A DNA stretch of 64,000 bases, taken from assembly GCA_039707465.1 (NCBI GenBank), contig CM077645.1, forward strand, positions 140,449,503 through 140,513,502. Direction: 5' to 3'. The notes under the pieces are model-generated. The model was not told where the DNA came from, did not search any database, and saw only the letters and a program-made list of their open reading frames with translations. Below, in pieces: positions 6,970 through 43,761 of this stretch (position 1 is the first letter of the stretch; every line of letters begins with the position of its first letter). Origin of the DNA: Rhabdophis nuchalis (taxonomy: Eukaryota > Chordata > Lepidosauria > Squamata > Natricidae). A program made the position numbers and the translations under genes.

Positions 6970-7842
6970 ATGGGAGATCACCAAGAAACCTTGAGTTTCA
7001 TCATTGCACCTGGTATGGATCAGCCCCTCATATTGGCATTACTGTGGCTGCGGAAATGGAACCCGCATGTGAACTGGAGGAAATGGGGGCTGCGCATTCA
7101 TTCCACTAAATCTTCAGAGCAGGAGGGGAGACTCTCCCACAAAGCCAGTGCTGAAACAAACCTAGCAGATGTGGTGCATGAGAAAATGGAAGAGGAGGAG
7201 AAAATCCCCAAAGAATATTGGGACCTCAGAGAGGTTTTCAGTGAAAGGGCTTCTGACAAACTACCTCCTTACTGTGCCACTGATTGCAGCATTGAGATCC
7301 TCCCAGGGGAAAAACTCCCTAAGCCTCAGATTTACTCGATGACCCCATGTGAGATGGAAGAATTACAAAATTTCATTGACAAAAATTTTAAAAGGGGATT
7401 CATACAACCCGCTAGACCACGGGTGGCCACACCCATCTTCAGAGAGAAAAAAGATGGCTTTTTCATCTGTGTGTCAACTATAAGAACCTGAATGCCATTT
7501 GTGTGGAAAACGTGTACCCTCTACCCCTCATGAAGGACATGTTAGTCCATTTGGGCAAAGGGAAAATTTTCACGAAGTTAGACCTAAGAGGAGCCTACTA
7601 CAGAGTCATAATAAAAGAGAGAGGTCAGTGGAAAACTGCTTTCAACTGCTCTTTGGAATGTTTCCAGTTTAGAGTACTCCTGTTTGGACTTCAGGGGGCA
7701 CCAGCGGTTTTCATGGAATAAATAAATGAGGTATTGCATGAATACCTGTACAAGGGAGTATTGGTTTATCTTGACAATATCCTTATCTACATGTAAACAC
7801 GTGAAAAACACATGACTTTGGTGCACTCAGTTCTCAAGAGAT
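6970..7842 (+). pseudogene. Gypsy reverse transcriptase, N-terminal part
   Basis: The first frame carries the E-Y-W-D-L-R-E-V-F linker and the P-x-R-V-A-T-P-I-F-x-x-K-K-D-G strand typical of Ty3/Gypsy RT. The next carries Y-P-L-P-L-M, the catalytic L-D-L-R-G-A-Y motif and F-G-L-Q-G-A-P. The YxDD box at about 7767-7778 reads Y-L-D-N, so the second catalytic aspartate is lost. There is a stop at 7489-7491, a stop at 7719-7721 and another shortly after the YLDN box. The RT then runs into an inserted LINE fragment. Confidence 0.88.
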
Positions 7843-9315: not shown

Positions 9316-10008
9316 GTTCAAGTAATATTCTTTTTTTTGTAAACAATTTTTGTTTTTATTTTTAAACAAACACAAACAAGTATAACAAAAAACAAAAAAC
9401 ATAAAGTCCATCTTCCATTACAAATTGTAGAAAATGTGTCAGTTGGTTACATACTGTACATCTCTTCCATAGTCATAATCATATCAAATCACATATTTCA
9501 GTTCAAATATATTTATATATATTACAATTATTATACCTCAACCTTCATTTGACTATCTTGTTTCCAGCCATTGGTAAAATTTATTCCAAATTTCATAAAA
9601 TTGTTCATTGTCTTGTTCTCTAATTTCAAATGTTAATTTATTCATCTCTGCACATTCCATAATTTTATAAATAATTTCTTGCTCTGATGGTAATTTGTCA
9701 TTTCTCCAATTTTTAGCAAAGACGATTCTAGCGGCTGTCAAAATATTCACAATTAGGTATCTCAAATTTTTGTCGAATGTTTCTAAATTAAGTCCAAGCA
9801 GGAAGAGTTCGGGTTTGAAATCTATTTGTTTTCCTGTTATTTTGTCCAACCATGTGTGGATCATATTCCAATAATTTTGGGCCTCCGAGCAAGTCCACCA
9901 CATATGGTAGTAAGTACCAGGCATCTGATGGCATTTCCAGCATTTTTGAGATTTGTTCTTGCTAATTTTTGAGATTCTTGAGGGTGATAGGTGTTCAAGT
10001 AATATTCT
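9316..10008 (-). mobile_element. 5'-truncated L1-type LINE nested in the Gypsy element, with target duplication
   Basis: The inserted body spans about 9332-9992 and is antisense to the Gypsy element. Its 3' end appears on the plus strand as a T-rich start. It encodes the end of an L1-type ORF2, including C-W-K-C-H followed by G-T-Y-Y-H-M-W-W-x-C, the conserved cysteine/histidine cluster of L1 C-termini. The host sequence gttcaagtaatattct occurs on both sides (9316-9331 and 9993-10008), a clear 16-bp target-site duplication from target-primed reverse transcription. The 179-codon minus-strand frame over 9553-10092 is a fusion of L1 codons with unrelated Gypsy sequence, and only the part inside the insertion is L1. 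Confidence 0.92.
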
Positions 10009-10014
10009 GATAAG

Positions 10015-10950
10015 TGCACCATGAAAGATGGTCTGGCCTGGGTAGGAGGCAAGCTGAATGTTCCTGCCAGCCTGAAAACTGTTGTCTTTCAAGGGGCCTA
10101 TGACTCAAGGATGGTGGGTCATTTTGGATTTGTGAAAACTTTGCATTTAATAAAAAGACAGTTTTGTTGGTCTTCCCTGAAAAAAAGACATTGAATCCTA
10201 TATAGCCCGTTGTCCTGTTTGTGCAGCTGCAAAGAGATTACCAGGAAAACCTCAAGGACTCCTTTATAGTTTTGCCTGCCTGTCGAGCTATCATAAAATT
10301 TTTGAAATAACCTTATTTGTGTGATCACTGATCTGCTCTCCAAACAGGTCCACTTTGTACCTTGTTCCAATGTCGCATCAGAAAAGCTGTTGGCTAAATT
10401 GTTTATACTACATGTGTATAGGTTACATGGAGTTCCTGAACTCATTATTTCAGACAGGGGGGTCCAATTCACCTCCCTCTTTTGGAAAGCGTTCCTGAAA
10501 TTAATAGGCTCTGCCTAGAGGCTAAGTTCTGCCCACCATCCGCAGACTAACAGGGTGTGTGAAAGAGCTAACTTGGTTCTGGAGCAGTACCTTAGGTGTG
10601 TTATATCAATTATCAACAAGGTAATTGGGTTGACTTTTTGCCACATGCAGACGTGGCATACAATAATTCAGTACATAGCAGTACTGGAATGACCCCTTTT
10701 AAAGTTGTGTTTGGCCAGGACTTTGTGCCCATTCCTGAATTGCCTCAAGAGAAGCCACAGATTTTGTCTGAGTGGAGTGATCAACTTCAACAGTTTTGGC
10801 CAATGACCCGCAAGGCCTTAGATGTGGCTCACCAAGCACACAAAAAACAAGCTGACAAAAAAAGGGCCAAGCCAAAACAGTACCAGGTTGGGGATAGGGT
10901 GTTTTTGTCCACTAGGTTTCTGCAAACCACCCAGAAATCAAATTAGGGCC
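10015..10950 (+). pseudogene. Gypsy integrase remnant
   Basis: The N-terminal zinc-binding region is degraded but recognisable around G-H-F-G-F-V-K-T-L. The catalytic core follows: T-D-L-L-S-K with the first aspartate near 10330, S-D-R-G-V-Q-F with the second near 10452, and C-E-R-A-N with the glutamate near 10561. The H-S-S-T-G-M-T-P-F box near 10676 and a basic R-A-K-P-K-Q-Y-Q-V-G-D-R-V-F stretch complete the Gypsy integrase pattern. Stops occur at 10516-10518 and near 10944, and frames shift at least twice. This would have inserted cDNA; this copy is dead. Confidence 0.87.
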
Positions 10951-12834: not shown

Positions 12835-12990
12835 TAATAAGGCATAGAGAGGCTTGCCTCATGTGCTGGAAAGTGCCGGTTCAAATCCCAGTAGAAGAAG
12901 TATGGCCAGCTGAAGAGGGCTAAAAAGCCCGAAATGGATTCATCCTGGTCTCTTAATTAATTATTAAATCATCCCTTAAAAATCTAAAAC
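12835..12990 (+). mobile_element. tRNA-headed SINE with hammerhead ribozyme, copy E
   Basis: A tRNA-like head ends in the pol III B box ggttcaaatcc. It is followed directly by a hammerhead fold and then a T-rich tail (gtctcttaattaatt) that runs into an (AT)n tract. The same head-ribozyme-tail order recurs in the copies at 20.2-22.3 kb. This copy belongs with copy F in a subfamily that has CUGAAGA at the core (position N7 = A). Confidence 0.75.
12904..12950 (+). ncRNA. Hammerhead ribozyme, copy E, core intact
   Basis: Order along the strand: stem I 5' GGCCAG, core CUGAAGA, stem II GGGCU with loop AAAA and AGCCC, then GAA, stem III AUG with loop GAUU and CAU, then C at the cleavage position (12944), then stem I 3' CUGGUC. 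All three stems pair, with one G-U in stem I. Beyond a UAU/U internal loop, AAG and CUU extend stem I by three pairs. All invariant hammerhead core positions are present (N7 may be any base). Self-cleavage is inferred from the fold, not shown. Confidence 0.78.
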
Positions 12991-14865
12991 ATATATATAT
13001 ATATATATTTAATAGGAGAATTAGTGCACGTATCTCAGAGCATAGGAATTCTGTTAAAAGACAAGTAAATACTTCCTCCCTTTTCCAGCACTTCAAAGCA
13101 TATATATATATATGTTACGGAATGTTACGGAATGCAGAGAAAATGTGAGAAATTCTTAATAGGCACAATTTCCCAAGTTTTTCCCAGGGCCTTTGTTAAG
13201 AGAAAGCCACATCTTTACTCTCACAGGAAGCCACATACTGGCTTCACTTAGAAGGAAAACATACCTATTTGGCATGTCTTAACAAAGTTTTTATTAATGA
13301 AATTCAGTAAGCTATGCACATGAGATACTCTAAAAGTTTCCAGATACAATATGCCATGGATAGGATCTCATGCTGTAAACTTTCAAATATTCTCAGTTGT
13401 TCACTCTGCTTGAGCTATCAAGGTTATGTTGCCATATAATTTATTTAGAGTTGTTAAAAGGGCATGTAGCAAAATCATCAGGCATTTCATCAAGCATCTG
13501 CTAGTCAGAAGGAAAAAAGCAATACATTTCAAAAATGACATTGAACATGAATGTCTACAGAGTACTTGACTATCATTGTATTGTAATATAAGTTAAAATG
13601 GAAAAAATTAGTATTGCTGAATATTTTATAAATTAATTAAACTGCATGCAGGCTTGATTTTGATCACTGAATAATATTTCTGTCCTTTAGCTACACAAAA
13701 CATTGTGAGTCATATATATATATTTCCATTTTGAAATTGAAAAATTTCCTTTTTGAAATCAATAAGAAAATACATATACTTTTTCATTTATGTTTATGCA
13801 TTTTGGACAACATTGTAATATTTTAACATTATCTCTCCAATCAAGCTCCCTTAAGTCCATTTCAACATATTACTTCAAAGGATATATGTAATTTTTGCAT
13901 ATTTCAATGGAGAAATGCACCTTAGTATTCTGAAAATAATCTAAAAAAGAAGTAAATTTATTGTTGTAACCACATATCATAGCATATAACATACCATAAA
14001 ATAGAATCAAAAGTCTAAATATGGCATAGTCACATTTTGGTTCATGTAATAATTTGCAGTATATTTCCATATAGTCAAAATTCTTTGGCTATTGCTTGGC
14101 CTTCTGGTGATGTGTTTTGTTGTATTTTCCCTTCAAATTAACAAGGATTAAGATATACTGTATTTTATTTAGCTGGATTTGATAATCTTATGAGAGAGAA
14201 GGTGCCCCATTATTTTGAAGTATTTAGATATTAAATTATAAAAGCTAGCCTGGAAAAAAGAAAGCCTTTTGAATTTAAAGCTGCAACAAATCTTTAAAAA
14301 TGCAGTCTTCTATTCATAAATCGTATAGCTCATATAATTCATAGTTACAACAAAAATAATGTTGATTGATATTTTCAGAAGGATAAATTATAGTACCCTT
14401 CAAATAGTAAGGTATCTGACTGTAATTAAGAATACAATTTTGAGATTATACTAATGTTTCAATATTTAAATCCTACCCTCTAAATAGTTTGAGGGAAATT
14501 ATTCTTAATTGTGCTACCCAAATAAATCAGACTTTGTCATCTTCACTTACTTCTGTCCACCACTCAGTAATGTTTGTACTACAATGCACATTGCATTCTT
14601 TTTTAAAGGAAGAATATATTTACAATATTCAAATATATTTTGGTTCACATTTAAAAAAAATATTTTAAAGTGTGAGAAAATGTGGTTTTTTTTAAAAAAA
14701 TGTTCCAGTTATTTTATAGGCCTCTTTTTTGAGCTAAACAGCAAAAAAAGTGTATAGACAATTGAATTAATTGAAACAAAAATCCAATACATTAATTGGA
14801 TTTTATGTATTAATTACTAAAAGAACTTGCTACATATATTAGGAAGAAAAGGGATGCAGTGTAAG
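12991..14865. other. AT-rich DNA with short (TA)n tracts
   Basis: Contains several (AT)n runs (near 12990, 13100, 13710) and a small duplicated gttacggaat at 13115-13133. I see no coding region or transposon end. Confidence 0.5.
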
Positions 14866-20202: not shown

Positions 20203-20400
20203 TATTTTATATATGTTAGTTTTTATGAGCTGATCAATAAATTTAAATTTGAGAGACCAAGATAGATCTATTTCGAGCTTATTAGCTCTCATCAGTTGGC
20301 CACACCCCGCTGGGATTCGAACCGGGGCTGTAATGAATCCAAGGCAGAAGCCTAGCACTCCAGCCTAATCGGTTCTACCCTGTTTCATCAGCTAATCCAG
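20203..20400 (-). mobile_element. tRNA-headed SINE with hammerhead ribozyme, copy A
   Basis: On the minus strand: a tRNA-like head with B box ggttcgaatcc, the ribozyme, then a tail containing attgatcagctcataaaaac and aacatatataa. Upstream of the head lies agctgatgaaacaggg, similar to agctgagacagga at the same place in copy C. On the plus strand it is followed by module M1. Confidence 0.78.
20255..20301 (-). ncRNA. Hammerhead ribozyme, copy A, core intact
   Basis: Minus-strand order: stem I 5' GGCCAA, core CUGAUGA, stem II GAGCU with loop AAUA and AGCUC, GAA, stem III AUA with loop GAUC and UAU, C at the cleavage position (plus coordinate 20261), stem I 3' UUGGUC. All three stems pair with one G-U. 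Compared with copy B (GGCUAG / UUAGUC), the third stem I position changes from U-A to C-G on both sides, a compensatory change. Confidence 0.8.
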
Positions 20401-20429
20401 GAGTATTTAGTATATAGATAATTGTTTCC

Positions 20430-20560
20430 ACAACTTCCTGTAAGGGCCCCAATTAAGGGAGGAGACATGCTGTTTCCCTCTCTGCCTGTCGGCTCATCAC
20501 CAGAGACCATCTAGACAGAGAACCATTTTTTAGTTACGTTGTGTAATATTTTTTAGATGT
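20430..20560 (-). repeat. Conserved module M1 of the SINE cluster
   Basis: This block, containing ccccaattaagggaggagac and ggctcatcaccagagaccat on the plus strand, recurs at 21096-21215 and 21411-21530. In the two later copies it lies between successive minus-strand tRNA-ribozyme units, so it is probably part of the transposing or tandemly repeated unit. I do not recognise its origin. Confidence 0.65.
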
Positions 20561-20724
20561 GTGATATCTAAACACATATAACACTGCCTGATGATGACAA
20601 GTGAGATCTTGTCGAAATGTTGCAATAACATCTCCATGCTATATAAACGGGAAAATCCCCGAAGCCAGCAATGCCAGCATACCTACATCCGTGAAAATCT
20701 ACGAAAACATATATATACATATAT
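20561..20724 (+). repeat. Retroelement end with hammerhead-like motif (copy G), probably Penelope-like
   Basis: Positions 20588-20632 contain CUGAUGA, then one extra U, stem II GACAAG with loop UGAGAU and CUUGUC, GAA, and stem III AUGUU with loop GCAAU and AACAU, followed by C. Stem I does not pair, so as it stands this is a degraded or non-functional hammerhead. The downstream gaaaatctacgaaaacatat tail resembles Penelope-like ends in other vertebrates. A similar arrangement lies on the minus strand at about 38.34-38.42 kb. Confidence 0.45.
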
Positions 20725-20855
20725 TGCTTGATATGCTGGAGAGTGCAGGTTCAAACCCCAGTGAAGGTAGTATGGCCAGCTGAAGAGGGCTAATAAGCCC
20801 GAAATGGATCCATCCTGGTCTCTTATTTATTAATCAGCCCTTAAAAAAACTTAAC

Positions 20856-20866
<11 letters not shown>
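20725..20866 (+). mobile_element. tRNA-headed SINE with hammerhead ribozyme, copy F
   Basis: A tRNA-like head with B box ggttcaaaccc is followed by the ribozyme and a tail (gtctcttatttattaatcag, then cttaacatatata) that ends at a (TG)n tract. It is in opposite orientation to copies A, C and D. It shares subfamily features with copy E. Confidence 0.77.
20774..20820 (+). ncRNA. Hammerhead ribozyme, copy F, core intact
   Basis: Stem I GGCCAG / CUGGUC, core CUGAAGA, stem II GGGCU / AGCCC with loop AAUA, GAA, stem III AUG / CAU with loop GAUC, and C at the cleavage position 20814. Relative to copies A-D, stem II carries G-C where they carry A-U, and stem III G-C where they carry A-U. Both are changed on both strands of the helix. 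Confidence 0.8.
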
Positions 20867-20892
<26 letters not shown>

Positions 20893-20897
<5 letters not shown>

Positions 20898-20945
20898 GTT
20901 AGTTTTATGAGCTGATCAATCAGCCCTAACAGGAAGTTGTGAAAA
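20893..20945 (-). repeat. SINE tail fragment
   Basis: On the minus strand this reads as the SINE tail (tgatcagctcataaaac, taactaacacac) and is joined to acttcctgttaggg, which resembles the edge of module M. It is probably a leftover of another unit in the cluster. Confidence 0.5.
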
Positions 20946-20947
20946 CA

Positions 20948-21001
<54 letters not shown>

Positions 21002-21080
21002 CATCCATCCATCCATCCATCCATCCATCCATCCATCCATCCATCCATCCATCTATCTATCTATCTATCTATCTATCTAT
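20946..21080 (+). repeat. (ATCT)n / (ATCC)n microsatellite
   Basis: A tetranucleotide tract of TATC units, switching to CATC units at 21000-21050 and back. It produces a repetitive open frame with no coding meaning. Confidence 0.97.
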
Positions 21081-21095
21081 GTGTGTATACTTTGT

Positions 21096-21215
21096 TCCAC
21101 AACCCCCTGTTAGGCCCCAATTAAGGGAGGAGACATACTGTTTCCTTTTCTGCCTTTCGGCTCATCACCAGAGACCATCTAGACTGAAAGCCATGAGTTC
21201 CGTTGTGTGATTTTT
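21096..21215 (-). repeat. Conserved module M2
   Basis: Near-copy of M3 and closely related to M1. On the minus strand it lies directly 3' of the copy C SINE tail. Confidence 0.7.
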
Positions 21216-21222
21216 TAAAATA

Positions 21223-21395
21223 TGTGATCAATAAATAAGTCAGGGAGACTAGTATAGATCTATTTCGAGCTTTTTAGCTGTCATCAGCTAGCCACACCCT
21301 TACTGGGATTCGAACTAGGGCTGTATTACATGTTAGGCAAACGCCTTACCACTTTGAGCCACCAGGTTCTCTTCCTGCTCAGCTGAGACAGGAGG
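21223..21395 (-). mobile_element. tRNA-headed SINE with hammerhead ribozyme, copy C
   Basis: The most complete head of the cluster. On the minus strand it shows an A-box-like tggctcaaagtgg, then the B box agttcgaatcc spaced as in tRNA genes, then the ribozyme and a tail (gtctccctgacttatttatt). The head does not fold as a complete tRNA by eye, so it is a tRNA-derived promoter, not a tRNA gene. Confidence 0.8.
21247..21293 (-). ncRNA. Hammerhead ribozyme, copy C, core intact, one stem II mismatch
   Basis: Minus-strand order: stem I GGCUAG / CUAGUC, core CUGAUGA, stem II CAGCU / AGCUC with loop AAAA, GAA, stem III AUA / UAU with loop GAUC, and A at the cleavage position (plus coordinate 21253). 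The first stem II pair is C opposite C, a mismatch next to the core; the remaining four pairs hold. Beyond a UGU/U internal loop, GGG and CCC extend stem I. Confidence 0.76.
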
Positions 21396-21410
21396 ATAAG
21401 TATATACTTT

Positions 21411-21530
21411 GTTCCACAACACCCTGTTAGGCCCCAATTAAGGGAGGAGACATACTGTTTCCTTTTCTGCCTTTCGGCTCATCACCAGAGACCATCTAGA
21501 CAGAAAGCCATGAGTTCCATTGTGTAATTT
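21411..21530 (-). repeat. Conserved module M3
   Basis: Near-identical by eye to M2, about 315 bp away, and part of a tandem duplication that also includes the adjacent SINE. On the minus strand the M3 end runs straight into the copy C head. Confidence 0.72.
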
Positions 21531-21536
21531 TTTTTA

Positions 21537-21650
21537 TATGTGTGTTACGTTTTTGAGTTGATCAATAAATGTCAGGGAGACTAGTATAGATCTATTTTGA
21601 GCTTTTTAGCTCTCATAAGCTAGCCATACCATTACTGGAATTCATCTATA
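21537..21650 (-). mobile_element. tRNA-headed SINE with hammerhead, copy D, 5' truncated
   Basis: On the minus strand only the end of the head (gaattccagtaatgg) is left before the ribozyme. The tail (tgacatttattgatcaactc) continues into module M3. It is the second unit of the tandem pair with copy C. Confidence 0.74.
21579..21625 (-). ncRNA. Hammerhead ribozyme remnant, copy D, core lost
   Basis: The stems GGCUAG / CUAGUC, GAGCU / AGCUC and AUA / UAU are all still paired, but the core reads CUUAUGA where CUGAUGA is needed, and AAA replaces GAA. Both changed positions (G5 and G12) are invariant guanosines in hammerheads, so this copy should be inactive. It is a natural negative control next to copy C. 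Confidence 0.78.
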
Positions 21651-21654
21651 CTTG

Positions 21655-21700
21655 TGTCACAACACAATAAGTATATACTTGTGTTGTGACATTAGTATAT
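21655..21700. repeat. Palindrome
   Basis: tgtcacaacacaa and ttgtgttgtgaca flank a short taagtatatac-type spacer, giving a perfect short inverted repeat at the junction between copy D and the LINE fragment. Confidence 0.7.
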
Positions 21701-21703
21701 ACT

Positions 21704-22118
21704 TCGCTCCCACAGAGAGGGACTTCTCCGGGTGCCGTCCACTAGGCTATGCCAGCGGGTGACGCCCAGGGGAAGGGCCTTCTCTGTGGCGGGCCCAACC
21801 CTCTGGAATGACCTTTCCCCCGAAATTAGAACAACCGCTCCTTCCGTCAAAAACTAAAAACTCATTTCTTCTGCCTGGCCGGCTTGGGGTAATCGAATTG
21901 TTATTAGGGACTTTTTGGGGTCCAGTTGGGATTTTAGCGCAGGGTCTAGTTTAATTTATTTTAATTGTATTTATGCTTGTTGGTTTTATGTATGTATTTT
22001 TAAATTCCCTGTGCACCGCCTCGAGTCCCTTCGGGGAGAGAGAGCGGTTTTATAAATTAAAATTATTATTGTTGTTGTTGTTGTTGTTGTTGTTGTTATT
22101 ATTATTATTATTATTATT
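21704..22118 (+). mobile_element. L2/CR1-group LINE 3' fragment
   Basis: It starts within the coding C-terminus (cgctcccacagagaggg, matching the LINE at 43.56 kb), runs through the W-N-D-L region and ends with the gcaccgcctcgagtccc tail and a (TTG)n(TTA)n microsatellite. It is severely 5' truncated and sits between SINE copies D and B. Confidence 0.87.
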
Positions 22119-22124
22119 CCCCTG

Positions 22125-22312
22125 GCCTAGCTGATCAGGATAAGAACCAGTAGTCTAGTGGCAATTACAACTGCCTCACATGTAACACTTCCCTGGTTCG
22201 AATCCCAGTAAGGGTATGGCTAGCTGATGAGAGCTAAATAGCTCGAAATAGATCTATATTAGTCTCCCTTATTTATTTATTTATCAGCTCAAAAACCTAA
22301 CATACATATATA
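22125..22312 (+). mobile_element. tRNA-headed SINE with hammerhead ribozyme, copy B
   Basis: The head carries an A-box-like tagtctagtggcaatta and the B box ggttcgaatcc. The ribozyme follows, then the tail with ttatttatttatttatcag and aaaacctaacatacatata. An upstream agctgatcagga resembles the stretch before the heads of A and C. Confidence 0.79.
22218..22264 (+). ncRNA. Hammerhead ribozyme, copy B, core intact
   Basis: Stem I GGCUAG / UUAGUC (with two G-U pairs), core CUGAUGA, stem II GAGCU / AGCUC with loop AAAU, GAA, stem III AUA / UAU with loop GAUC, and A at the cleavage position 22258. An outer GGG / CCC helix follows a UAU/U internal loop, which is where natural hammerheads make the loop-loop contact that gives fast cleavage. 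Confidence 0.8.
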
Positions 22313-40813: not shown

Positions 40814-43761
40814 ATGCAGAGGGTCGTGGGGAGAGGCAGGGCCGAGGGGAGACAAGCTACATCCTCCCGGTTGTTGCCGCGCGGCTGTTGGCTAAAAACG
40901 GTTGGGCGCCACAACCCCTGCAAGCTAGGTGGTCAGGAAGTACAGAGCCAGGGCCTGCGGCTGATGTTTTGTAATGCCAGGTCCGTTGTCAACAAAGCCC
41001 CCCTCATTAGTGACCTTCTGTCAGAGGGGGACCCGGACCTGGCCGGAATCGCGGAGACCTGGTTGGGCCACGAGGGAGGACTCCCCCTCGTTGAAATGTG
41101 CCCACCAGGCTACCGCGCTTTTCATCAGCCCTAGGCAGGGGTGGTGGGGTAGCGGTCATTGTAAAAGAAGGTCTTGAGGCGAGAGAGACCATTGTGCCAC
41201 AGACTACCGGTTGTGAGTCTCTCTGTGTGAAGTGGGGCCTAGGGAGGCAGTTGGGCTTGCTGGTTGTATACCTGGCTCCCCGCTATGTAGCAGCAGCCCT
41301 GCCCGAGCTCCTGGAGGTGATCGCTACGGTGGCAGTGGAGACCCCCAGACTTGTAGTCATGGGGGACTTTAATCTGCCATCGATGGGCGAATCATCCGAG
41401 GTAGCTCGGGAGTTCATGGCTTCCATGACAGCCATGGACCTGACCCAAGTAATTCAAGGCCCCACTCACGAGGGTGGACATACACCGGATCTCATCTTTG
41501 TCTCAGGCCAATGGAAGAGTGATCTGGGTATAGGGGATATAGTCATCACGCCCTTGTCATGGTCAGACCACTCACTTCTCCGGCTCGACTTTCCGACCGC
41601 TGCTCCCCTCCGCAGGGAGGCGGAAACAGAGTCTCCAATCTGGTACCGCCCCAGGCGCCTGATGGACCCGGATGGGTTCCAGACGGCGCTTGGGCCATTT
41701 CCGGTATCCCTGACCCGTGCCCCGATGGAGGACCTCACGGCCGCATGGAATAGTGCGGCCGTGGGAGCCTTGGATCGGGTCGCGCCCTTGCGGCCTCTCG
41801 TGCGGCGGCGAAACACCCAGGCCCCTTGGTTTACCGAGGAGCTGAGGGTGATGAAACGCCGCAAGAGATGCCTAGAGAGAAGATGGAGGTCTACCCGATC
41901 TGGATCTGACTGGACACAGGTAAGAGCCCATTTACGGACTTACATTGTGGCGCTGAGAGTGGCCAAACGCCATCATTGCGCCACTCTCATAGCATCCGCA
42001 GACAACCGCCCTGCCGCCATGTTTAGGGTGACCCGTGCCCTCCTCCAACAGAGGGTGTGGGAAGCCCCGCTACAGGGTAGAGCAGAGGAATTTGTGACTT
42101 TTCTGCAGGAGAAAACCGCTCAGATACAGAACGAGTTAGCCCCCATTCATGGCCCAGTGGGATGCCACGAGAGAGATCTTGTTTGGGAGGAGTTTGACTC
42201 CGTTACTTCCGAAGATATGGACAGGTTACGTGGGCGACTGCGAGCCACCACATGTTTACTGGACCCGTGTCCCTCCTGGCTTGTACTGGCATCCTGGGAG
42301 GTGACACGAGGCTGGCTCCAAGAGGTTATCAACGCATCCTTAAGTGAGGGTTCCTTGCCTGCTTCCCTAAAAGAGGCGATGGTGAGGCCCCTCCTTAAGA
42401 AGCCCTCTTTGGATCCAGCTCTTTTAAACAACTATCATCCTGTCTCCAACCTTCCCTTTTTGGCGAAGGTTGTCGAGAGTGTGGTGGCACAACAGTTTCC
42501 CCGTCACCTGGATGCAGTTGATTATCTAGATCCGCGCCAGGTCGGCTTTCGGCCCGGGCATAGCACCGAGACGGCATTGGTCGCGTTGGTGGATTATCTC
42601 TGGAGGGCCAGAGATGGGGGTTGTTCCTCCATCCTGGTCCTATTAGACCTCTCGGCGGCTTTCGATACCATCGACCATGGTATCCTATTGCATCGGCTGG
42701 GGGGGTTGAGGGTGGGAGGCACCGTTTTGCGGTGGTTCTCCTCCTACCTCTCTGGCCGATCGCAATTTGTGTTGGCAGGGGGGCAGAGGTTGACCACGAG
42801 ACCCCTCACATGTGGGGTGCCTCAGGGGTCGGTCCTCTCGCCCCTCCTGTTCAACACATATATGAAGCCGCTGGGTCAGATCATCTGTGGTTTTGGGGTA
42901 GAGTACCATCTATACGCTGATGACACCCAGCTGTATATATCTACCCCAGACCACCCCAACGATGCCGTAGCGGTGATGTGCCAGTGCCTGGAAGCTGTGC
43001 AGATCTGGATGGGAAGTAATGGACTCAAGCTAAACCCGACCAAGACCGAGTGGCTGTGGTTTCCGGCGGCCCGGTTCAACCAGCTTACTCCATCGCTGGC
43101 CATAGGGGGCGAACATCTTGCCCCTGTGGATGGGGCGCCCAATTTGGGTGTCCTCCTGGATACCCGGCTGTCAATGGAAGATCAGGTGACAGCCGTGGCC
43201 AGGAGGGCGTTTTACCAGGTTCGCCTGATACGCCAATTGCGCCCCCTATTGGATCGGGACGCCCTTCGCACAGTCACTCATGCCCTCGTGACGTCCCGAC
43301 TGGACTATTGCAACTCTCTCTACATGGGGCTTCCCTTGAGGTGCACCCGGAGACTTCAGCTAGTCCAGAATGCAGCTGCGCGAGCAATTATGGGTACCAC
43401 AAGGTACACCCATGTAACACCGCTCTTGTGCGAGCTGCACTGGCTGCCTGTCGTCTTCCGGGTGCGCTTCAAGGTATTAATTATCATCTTTAAAGCGCTC
43501 CATGGCTCGGGACCTAGCTACTTGCGGGATCGGATCCTGCCTCATACATCCTCACGACCGATTCGCTCCCACAGAGAGGGACTTCTCCGGGTGCCATCGA
43601 CTAGACTTTATCAGCGGGCGACACCCAGGGGAAGGGCTCTCTCTGTGGCGGGCCCAGCCCTCTGGAACGACCTCCTCCCCGATATTAGGACCACCACAGA
43701 CCTCCGCTCCTTCCGTCTTAAATTGAAAACACGCTTTTTCTGCCTTGCCGGCCTGGGATAG
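40814..43761 (+). pseudogene. LINE endonuclease-reverse transcriptase (ORF2), one frameshift
   Basis: The product would nick target DNA with an APE-type endonuclease and copy the LINE RNA by target-primed reverse transcription. The start, in the frame 40814-41134, holds F-C-N-A-R-S-V (catalytic asparagine) and A-E-T-W-L (catalytic glutamate). At about 41131-41140 the reading shifts, and the remaining 41098-43761 frame (887 codons) holds V-M-G-D-F-N at residues 87-92 and S-D-H-S at 156-159, completing the endonuclease. Reverse transcriptase follows with [18 protein letters not shown] and intact Y-A-D-D (606-609), then a C-terminal region ending L-A-G-L-G. Only the single frameshift appears to separate it from an intact frame. 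The family is assigned from these motifs and its tail; L2 versus another CR1-group clade is not certain. Confidence 0.87.

Follow-up and report, generated by a model that had tools for sequence, protein, structure and literature searches.

A ~345-nt repeat family with a predicted type I hammerhead and a polymerase III-type head in the snake Rhabdophis nuchalis: a candidate non-LTR retrozyme

Axolotl and newt genomes carry retrozymes without long terminal repeats (non-LTR retrozymes), described in PMC7229834 as head-to-tail repeats of ~330-350 bp with a type I hammerhead, a GC content below 45% and a weak stem III with a palindromic tetraloop, in genomes that also hold Penelope-like elements; in the main text of that paper the terms pol III and RNA polymerase III are absent. 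Here we describe a repeat family with the same traits, found in a stretch of 64,000 nucleotides (nt) from the snake Rhabdophis nuchalis (assembly GCA_039707465.1, contig CM077645.1, positions 140,449,503 to 140,513,502, forward strand; hereafter “the window”). With a probability of roughly 0.7, we read it as a family of repeats of ~345 nt, with a predicted type I hammerhead and a promoter of the RNA polymerase III type, which spreads in the manner of a non-LTR retrozyme. Unlike the axolotl and newt retrozymes, to which it is likened by sequence, the snake family has a squamate host, polymerase III boxes and a depletion of T runs. Further differences are a 10-mer that is palindromic throughout and has a 3-bp stem III, a choice between two 3′ ends, and insertions placed head-to-head.

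Sm-alpha of schistosomes reportedly carries a polymerase III-type head as well. Named in PMC6155905, it resembles the snake family as a short non-autonomous element with a type I hammerhead, whereas it belongs to a flatworm and is likened here by description, not by sequence. In reptiles, birds and mammals, hammerheads beyond the minimal Penelope ones are described as isolated fixed motifs, thought to have been domesticated from retroelements of lower animals (PMC6155905, PMC3088659). The intronic amniote hammerheads HH9 (RF02275) and HH10 (PMC3088659, PMC6155905) share with our family an internal loop in stem I, and the HH9 model matches its copies; however, HH9 and HH10 are single conserved intron motifs, whereas the snake family is dispersed, high in copy number and below the HH9 cut-off (33.6 vs 52 bits).

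Penelope-like elements bear tandem hammerheads in pseudo-LTRs; they share hammerheads with retrozymes and occur alongside them, and on these grounds have been put forward as their partners (PMC7761336). The Penelope/Poseidon group, as described in PMC11167929, resembles the snake family in its hammerheads and tandem layout, an AC-rich site where reverse transcription starts, targets rich in AT and extension of both strands, but is autonomous, with an open reading frame (ORF) for a reverse transcriptase (RT) and GIY-YIG, whereas our family has a unit of 345 nt and a canonical hammerhead. The short interspersed elements (SINEs) Squam1, Squam2 and Squam3 (PMC10702118, PMC7983390), compared here by description only, likewise have heads related to transfer RNA (tRNA), microsatellite tails and occasional tandem copies. 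Unlike the snake family, Squam3 is described in the same papers as having an end like that of L2 and tails that are mostly (TAAA)n or (CTT)n, and in term counts of the two papers “hammerhead ribozyme” is absent. The first-pass annotation of this DNA had listed newt satellite DNA, Sm-alpha, Penelope-like elements and retrozymes as precedents, an apt list in which the newt and axolotl repeats are closest. It had also known of no squamate SINE of this design, in agreement with the titles and abstract openings among the literature matches listed, where we found no reptile retrozyme or hammerhead SINE (a limited absence, with supplements outside its scope).

Window copies and the hammerhead fold

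We denote by S the piece made of tRNA-like head, hammerhead and tail, by X a module of ~150 nt, and by L-numbers the sampled 4-kb genome loci. Six copies, A to F, were confirmed at 20203-22312 and, for copy E, at 12.9 kb, with scores of 119.6-152.8 bits (E <= 4e-36) from a profile built from these same copies. Profile matches and pairing confirm the earlier observation that all six share one 47-nt hammerhead layout. The outline first given for the element holds for the head and ribozyme piece; it had overlooked module X, which alternates with the hammerhead part and is present in the window as three copies and a fragment. All six S pieces end in a AAAACTAAC(AC/AT)n-like tail. The boxes of copy F in the list follow what we take to be the A-box and B-box consensus.

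12841-13002, + strand: copy E, truncated head, hammerhead and tail (profile match)
12904-12950, + strand: hammerhead of copy E, predicted cut after 12944; intact; HH9 32.3 bits, 3.5e-6
20204-20375, - strand: copy A, tRNA-like head, hammerhead and tail, with module X1 upstream on the same strand (profile match)
20255-20301, - strand: hammerhead of copy A, 47 nt, predicted cut after 20261; core and 14/14 pairs intact; HH9 25.5 bits, 0.0019
20401-20566, - strand: module X1, upstream neighbour of copy A (profile match)
20577-20708, + strand: 5′-truncated Penelope-like fragment, 132 nt, 3′ end CTACGAAAAC before (AT)n; possible partner family (sequence)
20721-20867, + strand: copy B, truncated head, hammerhead and tail, immediately 3′ of the Penelope-like 3′ end (profile match)
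20774-20820, + strand: hammerhead of copy B, predicted cut after 20814; intact; HH9 33.6 bits, 4.7e-6
20923-20964, + strand: fragment of the X 3′ end, then (TATC)n (profile match, 5.2e-5)
21073-21228, - strand: module X2, downstream of copy C (profile match)
21202-21369, - strand: copy C, head, hammerhead and tail (profile match)
21247-21293, - strand: hammerhead of copy C, closing pair of stem II broken (10.1-11.1 = C.C; core and pair check)
21387-21549, - strand: module X3, between copies D and C (profile match)
21534-21697, - strand: copy D, head lost or replaced, hammerhead and tail (profile match; sequence)
21579-21625, - strand: hammerhead of copy D, two core defects (core and pair check)
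22144-22311, + strand: copy F, head, hammerhead and tail (profile match)
22151-22161, + strand: A-box-like TAGTCTAGTGG of copy F (sequence)
22195-22205, + strand: B box GGTTCGAATCC of copy F, 44 nt 3′ of the A box (sequence)
22218-22264, + strand: hammerhead of copy F, predicted cut after 22258; intact; HH9 24.4 bits, 0.0041

Every core base of the hammerhead is present in five of the six copies, and A, B, E and F are fully intact. Copy C, earlier named with F for a cleavage assay against copy D, is not intact at the 10.1-11.1 pair; in D two of the core bases are broken. The placement of the ribozyme directly behind a B box holds by eye in five copies and fails in copy D, which is without a good B box; 5′ of copy D a near-perfect inverted repeat around TGTGTCACAACACAATAAGTATATACTTGTGTTGTGACA replaces the head (21647-21705).

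Standard pairs fill 83 of the 84 pair cells in the six window hammerheads, compared with 28-46% in slid registers. Both sides change at four of the 14 pairs, which gives eight two-sided cells versus a shuffled mean of 2.7 (0/500 shuffles reach this; six copies). The consensuses of the two subfamilies (ties settled by first occurrence) differ at 10 positions while keeping all pairs and core bases, an outcome seen in 28 of 200,000 random placements, and within the conserved core they differ only at N7, a free position, and H17 (C or A). These results uphold the earlier claim that the stem pairs survive across two subfamilies through changes on both sides. Two further window measures fail to beat the shuffles, namely the number of pairs with two-sided change (32/500 reach it) and the number of pair types (481/500).

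The family is abundant, with 9,622 exact occurrences of a 32-letter degenerate core in the 1.918-Gb genome and 32,660 at up to three mismatches; the reversed pattern has 0 occurrences at either setting. A search for relatives in viral contigs and prokaryote genomes gave 0 matches. For the genome sample we used 60 loci of 4 kb, each chosen because it holds an exact core and all from the first 28 Mb of one contig, which biases the rates of intactness and of tandem arrangement. A model of the hammerhead (R1) has 159 matches in these loci, and the best 150 of the 159 were aligned (alignment A2) in a fit to the model structure, so that pair counts lean towards that structure. Judged by layout only, four pairs of loci with the same S/X layout (L013/L016, L015/L017, L018/L031 and L020/L032) are probably segmental duplicates; L016, L017, L031 and L032 were dropped from the layout, spacing, pairing-extension and Penelope-proximity counts, which leaves 56 loci, and were kept among the 150 aligned rows.

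Among these genome copies (150 copies, 96 distinct rows, identical rows counted once), 96.7% of the 1,334 pair cells are paired, compared with at most 44% in slid registers. There are 71 two-sided cells versus 19.7 (standard deviation 3.4) in shuffles, and the covariation score exceeds all 500 shuffles, whereas the number of pairs with two-sided change (236/500) and the number of pair types (413/500) do not exceed them. Position H17 is C in 118 copies and A in 32, with G and T in none. Collectively, covariation supports all three stems, and three points of the first-pass annotation, its ribozyme fold, its polymerase III-type head and the covariation between subfamilies, are borne out by the genome copies.

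The fold looks like the canonical natural hammerhead type, with a 3-bp stem III and an internal loop in stem I, and not like the minimal Penelope form. Past the internal loop (UAU/U), stem I apparently continues for at least three pairs (408/488 cells paired, shuffle mean 392.5, maximum 405 in 2,000 shuffles). The stem-III 10-mer is perfectly palindromic in 134 of the 150 copies and occurs in two forms linked by a compensated change. Because newt and axolotl hammerheads with palindromic stem-III loops are described as acting better as dimers (PMC7229834), those of the snake family may act as dimers too. Whenever a copy matches a hammerhead model, the one reported is HH9: below its threshold it matches A, B, E and F (scores in the list) and C (20.4 bits, 0.083), and it has no match to copy D even at that level. 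These cmscan E-values are unreliable on simple repeats and palindromes, microRNA models ranking above HH9 in one list.

A formerly active fold that is now inert sequence would leave broken copies such as C and D, a mean identity as low as the 72% seen among 18 units, and core or closing-pair defects such as those in 34 of the 150 sampled copies. We find such a decayed relic rather improbable in view of the 116 copies that are core-intact (a share biased upward, as the loci were chosen for an intact copy), the several tandem pairs with identical hammerheads and the thousands of exact cores.

Unit architecture and the polymerase III-type head

The S piece is part of a unit of ~345 nt in the order tRNA-like head, hammerhead, AC-rich tail, module X of ~150 nt and linker. 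In the 60 loci, 176 S and 137 X profile matches alternate, and S and X adjoin at a constant register in both subfamilies. Where the profile reaches the end of S, 67 of 145 ends lead directly into X and 78 do not, most of the latter entering a simple repeat (by eye). S comes next after 46 of 102 X ends and not after the other 56, and nearly full heads have X at most 80 nt upstream in 43 of 79 cases. Hammerheads on the same strand are spaced by 331-345 nt in 12 of 55 neighbour pairs, and in the window D-X-C forms a head-to-tail dimer with a period of 332. Because 11 unit-spaced pairs differ on average at 1.8 of 53 nt, versus 7.2 between loci (0/20,000 resamples this low), unit-spaced neighbours were probably born together; several tandem pairs carry identical hammerheads.

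A whole-unit profile (283 matches) places the 3′ ends within the unit in two sharp peaks, one at the S tail and one at the X tail, and these ends mostly continue into microsatellites. The 5′ starts are scattered across the unit, unlike the fixed 5′ end at the head of a tRNA-derived SINE monomer. Since it combines a head-to-tail unit, ragged 5′ ends and two alternative 3′ ends, the family has the anatomy of a metazoan retrozyme (compare PMC7229834). Two marks of non-LTR retrozymes are found as well, namely head-to-tail repeats of ~150-450 bp that contain a type I hammerhead, and a GC content below 45%, here 42% in 18 units taken at a spacing of 290-400.

We also considered module X as a second, decayed hammerhead and rejected it: all 150 aligned R1 matches lie in S and 0 in X only, and of nine weak matches inspected eight lie in S and one in neither. 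In four loci (L013 1587-1940, L037 2535-2916, L053 1632-1973, L057 2112-2483) two X modules flank a (TATC)n/(GATA)n array with their tails towards each other, an arrangement that would fit X insertions seeding or targeting tetranucleotide microsatellites. At L031 2357-3304, ~100 nt from X, a 316-aa open frame matches Pfam ANF_receptor (1.5e-23), a piece of a host receptor gene.

The head looks like a polymerase III promoter, with a B box in 16 of the 18 units and an A-box-like motif in 12, and with a spacing of 44-45 nt between the two motifs wherever both are present (10 units); the B box and the hammerhead core are among the best-conserved stretches of S. Sense TTTT runs number only four in the 18 units (15 have none) versus 20.6 expected and a minimum of 10 in 500 base-composition shuffles, and AAAA runs number 72. 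The depletion of T runs and the polymerase III-type head together suggest how a long multimer RNA could be made.

These boxes, the tens of thousands of dispersed copies and the existence of S copies without an X match (L033, L036, L044) would also be expected of a classical tRNA-derived SINE with an incidental hammerhead, in which a monomer transcript is copied by a long interspersed element (LINE), and module X and the tandem pairs are secondary insertions or duplications. We consider this unlikely, given the constant register of S-X neighbours in both subfamilies, the recurrent spacing of 331-345 nt, the ragged 5′ ends and the separate 3′ ends of X. A cut after the ribozyme would, moreover, separate promoter from tail in a monomer, whereas in a tandem transcript it would free a unit-length RNA. 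Of the original SINE label, the polymerase III-type head stands, but the head and ribozyme piece is only part of a ~345-nt head-to-tail unit with ragged 5′ ends and two 3′ ends.

Insertion sites and Penelope-like neighbours

Along the first 100 exact cores, neighbours lie less than 1 kb apart at 23 of the 99 gaps, where chance would give 0.33. In 10 of these close pairs the strand is the same (five pairs at 337-345 nt); the other 13 lie on opposite strands, 11 of them divergent and two convergent. Across the 56 loci, neighbouring parts at most 150 nt apart comprise 132 same-strand, 52 divergent and 36 convergent cases, the convergent ones mostly sharing one microsatellite (by eye). Head-to-head S pairs with similar junctions near the B box were seen in L067, L061, L058, L041, L029 and L009, with one arm starting from model position 56 and the other from 48-51 in five loci and from 13 in L067. 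This recurrent junction may mark a snap-back point or an inverted form that multiplies itself. For a purified Penelope-like protein of an anole, PMC11167929 describes the cutting of AT-rich DNA and the extension of both strands, with an internal AC-rich site as the starting point. Because the head-to-head arms have their tails outward, as two cDNAs (complementary DNAs) made from the two sides of a break would meet, we infer a Penelope-type integration primed on both strands.

The fragment at 20577-20708 belongs to what we take to be a Penelope-like family. Its first ATG, at 20591, lies 118 nt from its end, a distance that supports the family name because it fits the anole Penelope-like element, in which reverse transcription is reported to start 111-118 nt into the ORF (PMC11167929). 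The window fragment itself has a hammerhead-like fold of the minimal Penelope type at 20588-20642, with CTGATGAT, a long stem II and GAAA, ~130 nt upstream of copy B, which places two kinds of hammerhead within one kilobase.

The 20-letter end of this fragment occurs 6,098 times in the genome at up to two mismatches (reversed control, 84), and nine times in the 224 kb of the 56 loci versus 0.7 expected. Thirteen of 20 such 3′ ends (PLE-a, up to four mismatches) lie at most 80 nt from S or X, compared with a random mean of 1.2 and a maximum of 7 in 5,000, and a second Penelope-like 3′ motif, AAAACCCGAACAACCAAAGACCTAC (L014, L015, L022, L035, L047, L011), does so in 6 of 16 cases versus 1.0 at random (maximum 6). 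A motif of the LINE family L2 gave 3 of 20 versus 1.1 at random; this is a loose control, as the motif lies ~20 nt before the true L2 end, and no control for what tails run into. Conversely, 20 fetched places with the Penelope end, taken from the head of the occurrence list with four in or near S loci left out, hold S or X in 8 of 20 versus 1.3 expected from the window density (maximum 7 in 20,000), and there the Penelope arms are divergent in six places and convergent in two. Alternating purine-pyrimidine repeats follow the Penelope end in 31 of 38 cases and the S tail in 127 of 137 (S ends leading into X included). As a general feature, 3′ terminal letters in common with the Penelope-like fragment were rejected: they occur only in copy E, and the mean score of 3.4 versus 2.3 at random is equalled by 22% of random positions.

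Shared sites, similar tails and head-to-head insertions could also mean that S and X are together the pseudo-LTR of an autonomous Penelope-like family in this genome, of which our repeats are non-autonomous pieces and whose ribozyme they carry, and tandem pseudo-LTR hammerheads are described in such elements (PMC7761336). The terminal letters disagree, though, and the hammerhead is canonical, unlike the minimal one at 20588. Nor was any GIY-YIG found in the nine ORFs scanned of 137 frames of at least 150 aa in 80 fetched loci; their domains are RVT_1, endonuclease, integrase and receptor. We give this explanation little credence. The 345-nt unit itself is too short for an RT/GIY-YIG ORF.

Other retroelements are present in the window. 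An 887-aa ORF at 41098-43761 encodes an L2-type LINE reverse transcriptase, possibly of a young copy; squamates are the 51 best-scoring among the matches listed (best 120 of 7,982 candidates scored), and the closest of these are in part snakes, with Pituophis at 79% over 23% of the query and Ahaetulla at 65% over 56%. The ORF fragments at 9553-10092, 6970-7491 and 10596-10946 resemble L1 and gypsy-type retroelements.

The retrozyme reading and its meaning

Several observations weigh against a non-LTR retrozyme with a polymerase III-type promoter. The match above threshold to a hammerhead covariance model that the first-pass annotation had looked to was not obtained, Rfam at curated thresholds giving 0 matches in the window and 0 in 15 loci. 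Taken alone, the 47-mers have no unusual stability (z -0.05 to -2.39); at minimum energy, all six but C form stem I together with most of stem II, and stem III appears in 0/6. The distal stem I pairs nearly equally when slid by one (mean 0.73 vs 0.74, five pairs), so its exact pairing is not fixed, and one natural unit folds no better than shuffles (z -1.28, 12/100). With ARAGORN, neither the window nor any of the heads in the 56 loci yields a tRNA (its lone call, tRNA-Arg in L026, falls outside the heads), and the pooled A box is poorly conserved. The tandem pairs could be local DNA duplications, and a shared preference for microsatellites could by itself explain the crowding with Penelope ends. 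The 3′ letters, matching only in copy E, do not appear to give the route by which a Penelope protein would recognise S or X RNA, and the nine scanned ORFs without GIY-YIG include no Penelope ORF.

Starting from the observed sequence and layout, we infer each RNA and enzyme step of the retrozyme cycle as follows. Transcription would begin at the head and, because T runs are few on the sense strand, may read through into the next unit. Neighbouring hammerheads, perhaps paired via the palindromic stem III, would then cut out a unit-length RNA of ~345 nt, which a host RNA ligase would circularise. Where microsatellite DNA is broken, a Penelope-type reverse transcriptase would begin at the S or X tail on each of the two broken ends, and the two resulting cDNAs would meet head-to-head.

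The insertion anatomy, with its shared sites and head-to-head pairs, turns the question of a Penelope partner into one that is directly testable. A high-copy, dispersed, HH9-like family in a squamate places a candidate source of fixed hammerheads inside the amniotes. It is conceivable, although we hold it doubtful, that self-cutting RNA circles, driven by polymerase III, live on as a population in squamates; that a Penelope-type reverse transcriptase inserts their cDNAs two at a time, from the two sides of a broken microsatellite, so that they meet head-to-head; and that amniote introns once acquired their fixed HH9-like hammerheads from this mobile population. If the retrozyme reading is true, the few hammerheads that are fixed in genes of reptiles, birds and mammals may have a still living source in this family.

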